Part shown: positions 23,481 through 43,228 of the stretch, one piece after another
How positions within the stretch are numbered: position 1 is the stretch's first letter
Layout: each line of letters starts with the position of its first letter
DNA from: Cytophagales bacterium
Lineage (GTDB): Bacteria; Bacteroidota; Bacteroidia; Cytophagales; Cytophagaceae
Reading direction: 5' to 3'
Assembly (NCBI GenBank): GCA_013297765.1
Contig: JAAFID010000004.1
Span: 1-52,345 of the forward strand
DNA: 52,345 bases
Notes under the pieces: generated by a model
Seen by the model: only the letters and a program-made list of their open reading frames with translations
Told to the model about the DNA's origin: nothing
Database searches by the model: none
Position numbers and translations under genes: made by a program

Positions 23481-23497
23481 TTTATTTTATTGCCATA

Positions 23498-23540
23498 ACG
23501 ACAAAGGACACTTCGAGTGTCCTTTGTCGTTTACAGTGAT
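23498..23540 (+). terminator. Strong rho-independent terminator after secDF
   Basis: A perfect 15-base inverted repeat, ACGACAAAGGACACT (23498-23512) with AGTGTCCTTTGTCGT (23516-23530), has a 3-base TCG loop and a following T-rich stretch. It separates secDF from folK. Confidence 0.9.
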
Positions 23541-34566: not shown

Positions 34567-35634
34567 TTAAATTTTCTTCTTTTTGCCAGCTATTTTTTTT
34601 GCAGTTTTGGATACCTTTATTTCTTCTAGCTCTAATTGGTTTTCTATCTGTTCTATGGTCGGCAACTGGCTTTGGAAGTTTTTTGGCAGTGCATGTGTTA
34701 GCTTGTACTCGCTAATGCCAATAGGCTTTTTAATGTCTCGCAAAGAATACTCGGCTTCTATTTTGTCTTTGTGTTTACATAGTATAAGGCCTATGCTGGG
34801 GTTGTCATTAGGGTGTTTTAGCTGAGTATCTATAGCCGACAAATAAAAGTTGAGTTTGCCTGCATATTCAGGTTTAAATTTTCCTGCTTTTAGCTCTATC
34901 ACTATATAGCTGCGTAAATGTAAGTGATAAAAGAGCAAATCAATATGGTATTCATTATCGCTTACTACTACTTGGTATTGCCGACCAACAAAAGCAAAGC
35001 CTTTGCCCAATTCGATTAAGAATTTAGTGATATGATTCACCATAGCATTTTCAATATCTAATTCTAAGGCATCATTCCCCAATCCCAAAAAATCAAAATT
35101 GTAGGGATTCTTAAGCGTTTCAATAGCCAATGCAGATTGTAACTCTGGCAAAGTGTTTTTAAAATTTGTTACTGCCTTGCCTTTAGAGTGGTAATAATAA
35201 TTAAGAATTTGAAATTCTAATTGCTCCCTATTCCAACCATTTTGCAGGGTTGCATGGCAGTAAAATAGAGCTTCTTGAGTATTCTTAGTTTTAGAAATAA
35301 TGAGCCTATTATGCCCCCATGGAATTTGTGCCACAGCCTGTGGCACAAATTCGTTTTCTGCACTGTAAAATAAAAACCACTGCCTAATGGCGTATAGATT
35401 TCTGCGAGAGAAGCCGCTCATATCGGGGAAACTTAATTTTAAATCAAGTGCCAATTGATTTAAAACTGCATCGCCCCAATTGGCTTCATTTTGCTTCTGA
35501 ACAATGTCTTTACCCAGCTCCCAATAAAGCTCCATAAGCTGTGTATTGATGCTTACCGCAGCTTTAAACTGGGCTAATTTAATCTTCTGTTTTAGTTGTT
35601 TAAGCCACGCTTTATATGTTTTACCTACTATCAT
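34567..35634 (-). CDS. YhcG-family (DUF1016) PD-(D/E)xK nuclease-like protein
   Basis: This 355-residue protein has the two-part DUF1016 layout. The N-terminal helical domain (about 10-170) contains ELYWELGKDIVQKQ, LSFPDMSGFSRRNLYAIRQW and QIPWGHNRLI. The C-terminal nuclease-like domain has GRQYQV, then Asp232 in HIDLLFY and Glu247-Leu-Lys249 in IVIELK. The tail ends in a Lys-rich patch (KTAKKIAGKKKK). Family members are scattered, often near restriction or mobile genes; the biological role is poorly known. Residues about 95-104 are encoded by a perfect 31-base palindrome, and a similar palindrome lies in the leader. Confidence 0.92.
   Translation of the reverse strand: MIVGKTYKAWLKQLKQKIKLAQFKAAVSINTQLMELYWELGKDIVQKQNEANWGDAVLNQLALDLKLSFPDMSGFSRRNLYAIRQWFLFYSAENEFVPQAVAQIPWGHNRLIISKTKNTQEALFYCHATLQNGWNREQLEFQILNYYYHSKGKAVTNFKNTLPELQSALAIETLKNPYNFDFLGLGNDALELDIENAMVNHITKFLIELGKGFAFVGRQYQVVVSDNEYHIDLLFYHLHLRSYIVIELKAGKFKPEYAGKLNFYLSAIDTQLKHPNDNPSIGLILCKHKDKIEAEYSLRDIKKPIGISEYKLTHALPKNFQSQLPTIEQIENQLELEEIKVSKTAKKIAGKKKKI
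35322..35352. repeat. Perfect 31-base palindrome inside the YhcG-like gene
   Basis: Arms GAATTTGTGCCACAG (35322-35336) and CTGTGGCACAAATTC (35338-35352) are exact reverse complements around one base. The sequence is in frame and encodes about EFVPQAVAQI within the N-terminal domain. Confidence 0.85.
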
Positions 35635-35656
35635 AATTACAAATTAACATTTTTTT

Positions 35657-35687
35657 CTATTTGTGCCACAGCGTGTGGCACAAATAG
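35657..35687. repeat. Second palindrome of the same type in the YhcG-like gene leader
   Basis: Arms CTATTTGTGCCACA (35657-35670) and TGTGGCACAAATAG (35674-35687) are exact reverse complements around GCG. The core ATTTGTGCCACA/TGTGGCACAAAT is identical to the copy inside the gene, while the outermost bases differ on both sides in a matching way. It lies 23 bases upstream of the ATG. Confidence 0.85.
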
Positions 35688-43190: not shown

Positions 43191-43228
43191 AAAAAAAAAG
43201 CACTACAACAGTTGTAGTGCTTTTTTTG
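43191..43228 (+). terminator. Rho-independent terminator
   Basis: An A-run (43191-43199), GCACTACAAC (43200-43209) and its exact complement GTTGTAGTGC (43211-43220), then seven T. It ends the DUF4142/small-peptide unit. Confidence 0.88.

Follow-up and report, generated by a model that had tools for sequence, protein, structure and literature searches.

Intragenic operators of autoregulated genes consist of a dyad site within the gene plus one near its start; they are not known to be conserved at one codon across phyla, and pairing is not expected at positions that differ between copies. In the REP/RAYT systems (REPtrons), short palindromes lie beside a nuclease-type gene and are specific to it, hairpin recognition is possible, and sequence classes vary between genes with pairing maintained, all of which recalls the palindromes described here. 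REPs lie outside genes in high copy number, and RAYTs belong to the HUH tyrosine enzymes (PMC2817692, PMC8266576). Rickettsia palindromic elements (RPE), likewise palindromic DNA translated in frame, are selfish elements of ~100-150 nt inserted in many unrelated genes (PMC4316617). The family considered here, YhcG/DUF1016, is a common uncharacterised nuclease family and a phage-defence candidate in PADLOC (PDC-S02); it has been placed near DUF91 and Holliday-junction resolvase-like enzymes (Kosinski 2005, PMC1189080), and in that work its DNA cleavage is a prediction only.

In YhcG genes, as with intragenic operators, a dyad inside the gene may be accompanied by one near the start, as seen in the window (the whole 52,345-nt stretch of Cytophagales DNA analysed here) and in the loci L004, L011 and Arthrobacter L115, four loci in two phyla with same-core copies 35-64 bp before the start; such upstream copies belong to a small minority of loci and are absent from most. 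Unlike those operators, the YhcG site occupies one codon across phyla and keeps its pairing where copies differ. Compared with REPs and RAYTs, YhcG sites are few, bound to their locus and inside an ORF, and the enzyme is of the PD-(D/E)XK type rather than an HUH tyrosine transposase. Assignment to REP/RAYT was rejected, the palindrome being present only at DUF1016 loci and the gene encoding a PD-(D/E)XK nuclease. Assignment to RPE was rejected as well, since the sites are found only in DUF1016 genes and their remnants, that is, in one gene family, at one codon position, over 27 bp and in nearly all members. To our knowledge, a palindrome in DUF1016/YhcG genes has not been described before, and a literature search of limited reach returned no report of one.

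Judged by its sequence, the window protein is a full member of the YhcG/DUF1016 family. Both domains match above cut-off and near full length (DUF1016_N, PF17761, E 6e-38; YhcG_C, PF06250, E 2.5e-64), the alpha-helical DUF1016_N preceding the YhcG PDDEXK nuclease domain, and PADLOC returns PDC-S02 (1.6e-142). The predicted nuclease motif of the E-D-ExK type is intact, with the columns of E191 and of the predicted catalytic D232 and K249 invariant in the family alignment and ELK at residues 247-249. Structure comparison gives NucS/EndoMS as the best fold match of the nuclease domain (E 3e-5), which agrees with the published placement cited above (PMC1189080). A search of the PDB by sequence gave no match, and by fold a good match to the nuclease domain only; no solved relative of the DUF1016 N-terminal domain was found there by sequence or fold. 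In an AlphaFold2 model (50 sequences, pLDDT 83, pTM 0.53), residues 94-104, encoded by the palindrome, connect helix 77-91 to helix 106-115 as a linker modelled with lower confidence, where change and insertions can be tolerated. The gene, with its ATG at 35634, is flanked by genes for an outer-membrane efflux protein and a FAD-linked oxidase.

Table 1. Coordinates of the DUF1016/YhcG gene of the window and of its palindromes.
Feature	Position	Strand	Description
DUF1016/YhcG gene	34567-35634	minus	355 aa, ORF; DUF1016_N + YhcG_C PD-(D/E)XK nuclease
In-gene palindrome GAATTTGTGCCACAG-C-CTGTGGCACAAATTC	35322-35352	minus	arms 15, 1-base centre
Third, weaker in-gene palindrome TTTTAAATCAA...TTGATTTAAAA	35437-35465	minus	arms 11, 7-base centre
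Upstream copy CTATTTGTGCCACA-GCG-TGTGGCACAAATAG	35657-35687		arms 14, 3-base centre, innermost pair G.G mismatch

An earlier note on this DNA had claimed a perfect 31-base palindrome in the coding region, and this is confirmed (Table 1). Its family-conserved part is a 27-bp dyad (35324-35350, ATTT-N9-n-N9'-AAAT), whose axis is the first base of the Ala codon that precedes Val in EFVPQAVAQIP. The upstream palindrome lies where that note had placed it, ending 22 bases before the ATG; its description as perfect was slightly overstated in view of the mismatch at the centre. The two are 335 bp apart from axis to axis, and their outer two bases indeed differ (GA/TC vs CT/AG) and are complementary within each copy. 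Folded as ssDNA, both 31-base palindromes give hairpins (14-bp stem, 3-nt loop; -14.6 and -14.2 kcal/mol) of a stability reached by 0 of 200 shuffles; these palindromes are not due to chance. By alignment, the third palindrome stands at the equivalent of the second site in E. coli-type relatives, 105 bp from the main one, a position that may be coincidence. The core palindrome is confined to the two main places within this genome (3.56 Mb); elsewhere in the order (194 genomes searched) it is present in a single other genome, inside a DUF1016 gene. A generic genome-wide scatter without a DUF1016 link was sought and did not occur; the suspected link of the core to DUF1016 genes proved close to exclusive, in this genome and in others.

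Relatives were drawn from Bacteroidota genomes, viral contigs (in which a single-protein scan gave no match and an alignment-based search 73 loci), E. coli, and plasmids of several phyla (Fusobacteriota, Cyanobacteriota, Actinomycetota, Deinococcota, Planctomycetota, Pseudomonadota). The common form of the site is W4-N9-n-N9'-W4, 27 bp long, with A/T at the four end positions, most often AATT. In nearly all homologues, the gene's best palindrome is centred on the first codon base of one and the same residue in the alignment. A set of 178 DUF1016 genes, taken from Bacteroidota and other phyla and from plasmids and phages, was scored over the 11 arm pairs d3-d13. At least 10 of 11 are formed in 123 of these genes and in 5 of 221 control ORFs from the same loci, all five being duplicate DUF1016 copies. 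A few genes, including those of L110 and L080, are without a clear site, and some others that have none are truncated. The half-sites, given from d9 to d1, are diverse: GTGCCACAG in the window, GTCCAACAA in Vibrio, CTCGTATCA in Pseudomonas, TGGCAGACG in E. coli, and CTCTCAGCA and GCGAAACAA in other Bacteroidota. Dyad length is nearly invariant across sites.

The note had also offered a REP-like element inserted in frame, with EFVPQAVAQ as the insertion. Alignment of homologues speaks against this: the segment is the aligned, near-universal site position, and the palindrome is not dispersed. In-frame insertion is thereby ruled out as the origin of the site, extra tandem units being insertions in some genes, and a dispersed repeat is ruled out by the lack, in the genomes searched, of copies away from DUF1016 loci and remnants. 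Domain swapping at the palindrome, considered for matches that start at residue ~95, was set aside because these mostly reflect in-frame extra palindrome units. The site class TTGCMACAGNCTGTKGCAA is present in 19 of the 395 Bacteroidota genomes searched; 17 of the 19 loci examined have DUF1016 domains, and the other two resemble decayed remnants by context. In the one E. coli chromosome searched, with up to 2 mismatches, the site is found at the yhcG locus only. The window genome has eight DUF1016 nuclease-domain matches, among them six intact paralogues, each with a different N9 site; six different sites would be expected if each site-protein pair must be distinct, and simple divergence would look alike. 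Copies in this genome are on contigs C225, C269, C27, C120, C245, C58 and C70 of G000; the C70 copy is broken, yet retains a perfect site.

Beyond position, the pairing itself is conserved. The note's impression, drawn from two copies, that structure rather than sequence is kept holds family-wide, with arms that covary while their letters vary. Of the 13 stem positions, 12 (d2-d13) form Watson-Crick pairs in 65-74 of the 74 non-redundant sites, where column compositions would give 23-56. None of 2000 permutations reached the observed pairing, and up to four pair types are used per position (at d7, 45 GC, 19 CG, 9 TA and 1 AT). In close pairs of sites, 932 differences in one arm are matched by a compensating change in the other, where arms varying independently would give 215; the pairs are not phylogenetically independent. 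Protein constraint alone is ruled out by a synonymous-codon null, in which the peptide was fixed and codons were sampled according to the usage of the gene concerned: the null gives 6.5 of 13 pairs where 11.7 are observed (combined z = 30), and 66 of 74 genes depart from it at p<=0.01. The pairing counts and the null comparison are both somewhat inflated by taking the best site in each gene and keeping those with at least 9 of 11 pairs; the control ORFs indicate that choosing the best palindrome alone does not produce such sites. The innermost position is relaxed (d1 paired in 42 of 74 sites, 33 expected) and its neighbour strict (d2 paired in 65 of 74, 28 expected), which fits a duplex dyad with an uncontacted centre and a DNA hairpin with a 3-nt loop alike. 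These comparisons of homologous sequences show the palindrome to be a DNA-level element that is fixed in position, conserved in pairing and, as far as searched, restricted to DUF1016.

The explanation that we favour, at a probability of roughly 0.45, is that the in-gene palindrome is a functional DNA element and a putative self-recognition site of YhcG, most likely autoregulatory. A covarying palindrome at one codon suggests that the gene carries, within its coding sequence, a DNA signal for its own protein. As the protein always present with the site, YhcG itself would be the reader, of either a two-fold symmetric duplex or an extruded hairpin or cruciform (12-bp stem, 3-nt loop). Such a role would fit a nuclease domain with kinship to NucS/EndoMS and to Holliday-junction resolvases, and a hairpin or cruciform is favoured by outer triplets that differ but stay paired in copies served by one protein. 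A strictly sequence-specific dimer is not favoured, since copies in one locus differ at d7-d9. Partial distance correlations are uninformative and do not point to the N-terminal domain in particular as the source of specificity. In the most tentative step, binding of YhcG to its own gene and to the copies near the start might keep a nuclease of defence type, potentially toxic, at low expression or activity. The rarity of the upstream copy implies that promoter-type autoregulation is not general, and the E. coli copy after the stop codon cannot regulate initiation of yhcG transcription. Being inside the gene, the site is inseparable from it when a single gene moves between genomes. YhcG/DUF1016 may then, tentatively, be a new class of self-recognising genes with the site in their own frame, site and protein evolving jointly into mutually distinct pairs that serve self-control or one-gene mobility.

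A covarying palindrome locked in the gene across phyla points to a likely substrate or ligand of YhcG, and would be a rare case of a coding sequence tied to a DNA-level signal strictly enough for the peptide to change with it. It also provides a testable entry to YhcG function in K-12; a full-length match at the yhcG locus (at least 80% query coverage) is present in 3308 of 5426 complete E. coli genomes.

The main rival to self-control, which we consider somewhat unlikely, is a REP/RAYT-like mobility or gene-conversion site, where YhcG would nick or cut the hairpin or cruciform and the gene could be copied, replaced or multiplied as a one-gene cassette. Near-identical DUF1016 genes with unrelated flanks, the homology stopping at start and stop, show transfer of single genes and are what such a cassette predicts, but ordinary homologous recombination also gives cassette-like exchange in restriction-modification operons. 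The locus L004 has in-gene and upstream palindromes in the same arrangement and spacing as the window, and DNA homology between the two starts at the upstream palindrome, the neighbourhoods beyond being unrelated. Flanking copies point the same way: E. coli and L087 have one ~30 bp after the stop, and on the Moraxella osloensis plasmid L114 another palindrome, AAACTGTGGCAAATTGCCACA, different from the in-gene site, brackets the gene at -34 of the start and +14 of the stop. In most genes, however, the in-gene site stands alone, sites are not dispersed in genomes, and neither defined ends nor target duplications were seen.

In E. coli K-12 BW2952, yhcG (L204:12498-13667) contains three palindromes spaced by 39 bp (13 codons), with further copies 28 bp after the yhcG stop and ~28 bp after gltD (L204, centre 5315). 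The three in-gene copies and the one after the yhcG stop share a CAGAC core near the axis, and their outer triplets differ and are mostly still paired, with compensated changes around CAGAC (TTCGC/GCGAA, TTTGG/CCAAA, TTCTG/CAGAA). The O157:H7 allele (L200) has one in-gene copy and 26 codons fewer. Tandem in-frame units with the 39-bp period recur in unrelated lineages (L035, L041, L042, L043, L047, L013 and E. coli), as a multiplying element would lead one to expect; other spacings of in-gene units are 36, 48, 54, 105-111 and 183 bp. Strain R2 (L199:2900-3050) has no yhcG and retains a perfect 27-bp site between the adjoining gltD and nanQ, and in 944 E. coli genomes a match in one place covers at least 80% of the 301-bp gltD-nanQ stretch. 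This apparent empty site would suit a mobile cassette, but with K-12 copies after gltD and before nanQ, deletion between the two flanking copies is its simplest account.

It is improbable that the site is read by another protein, such as a restriction-modification subunit, an integrase or a host structure-specific nuclease, with the YhcG genes as its customers. DUF1016 genes often stand beside hsdM/hsdS/hsdR (type I restriction) or a site-specific integrase, and the dyad length is typical of recombinase sites; however, no common partner gene was found, none being near the gene in the window, in L004 or in E. coli K-12, and the association of the site with DUF1016 holds across phyla.

Also quite improbable is the absence of any function, with a chance palindrome either kept perfect through hairpin-templated mutation (quasipalindrome correction) or imposed by the amino acids. 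Templated correction predicts restored stems and a spared loop, which is the pattern observed, and the peptide motif h-x-x-Q-x-V-x-Q recurs at the site among homologues. Against this reading stand the failure of the synonymous-codon null described above, an encoded peptide that changes along with the palindrome, the absence of such sites from other ORFs of the same loci, and a position, 27-bp extent and A/T ends that stay fixed even in GC-rich hosts.

An mRNA hairpin, with arms pairing in the transcript (5'-UTR and coding region) to control translation or decay of yhcG mRNA, is highly improbable: stems are perfect in the transcribed region, one lying just before the window's ribosome-binding region, and the relaxed d1 is loop-like, but a transcript hairpin should tolerate G.U and the coding-strand arm mismatches show no such excess (G.T 27 vs A.C 50; 14 vs 21 in the non-redundant set), the E. 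coli copy lies after the stop, and Rfam gave no match.

Remnants of DUF1016 genes were observed behind duplicated hsdS-like 3' ends in related Bacteroidota (L225:1322-9291, L226, L227, L232 and L237). One remnant class starts 6 bp from the palindrome, a single old deletion behind hsdS that is common to several genomes. The window itself holds two more perfect hairpins, at 23497-23531 (arms 16) and 43193-43227 (arms 17), the latter ending in a run of T and resembling an intrinsic terminator.
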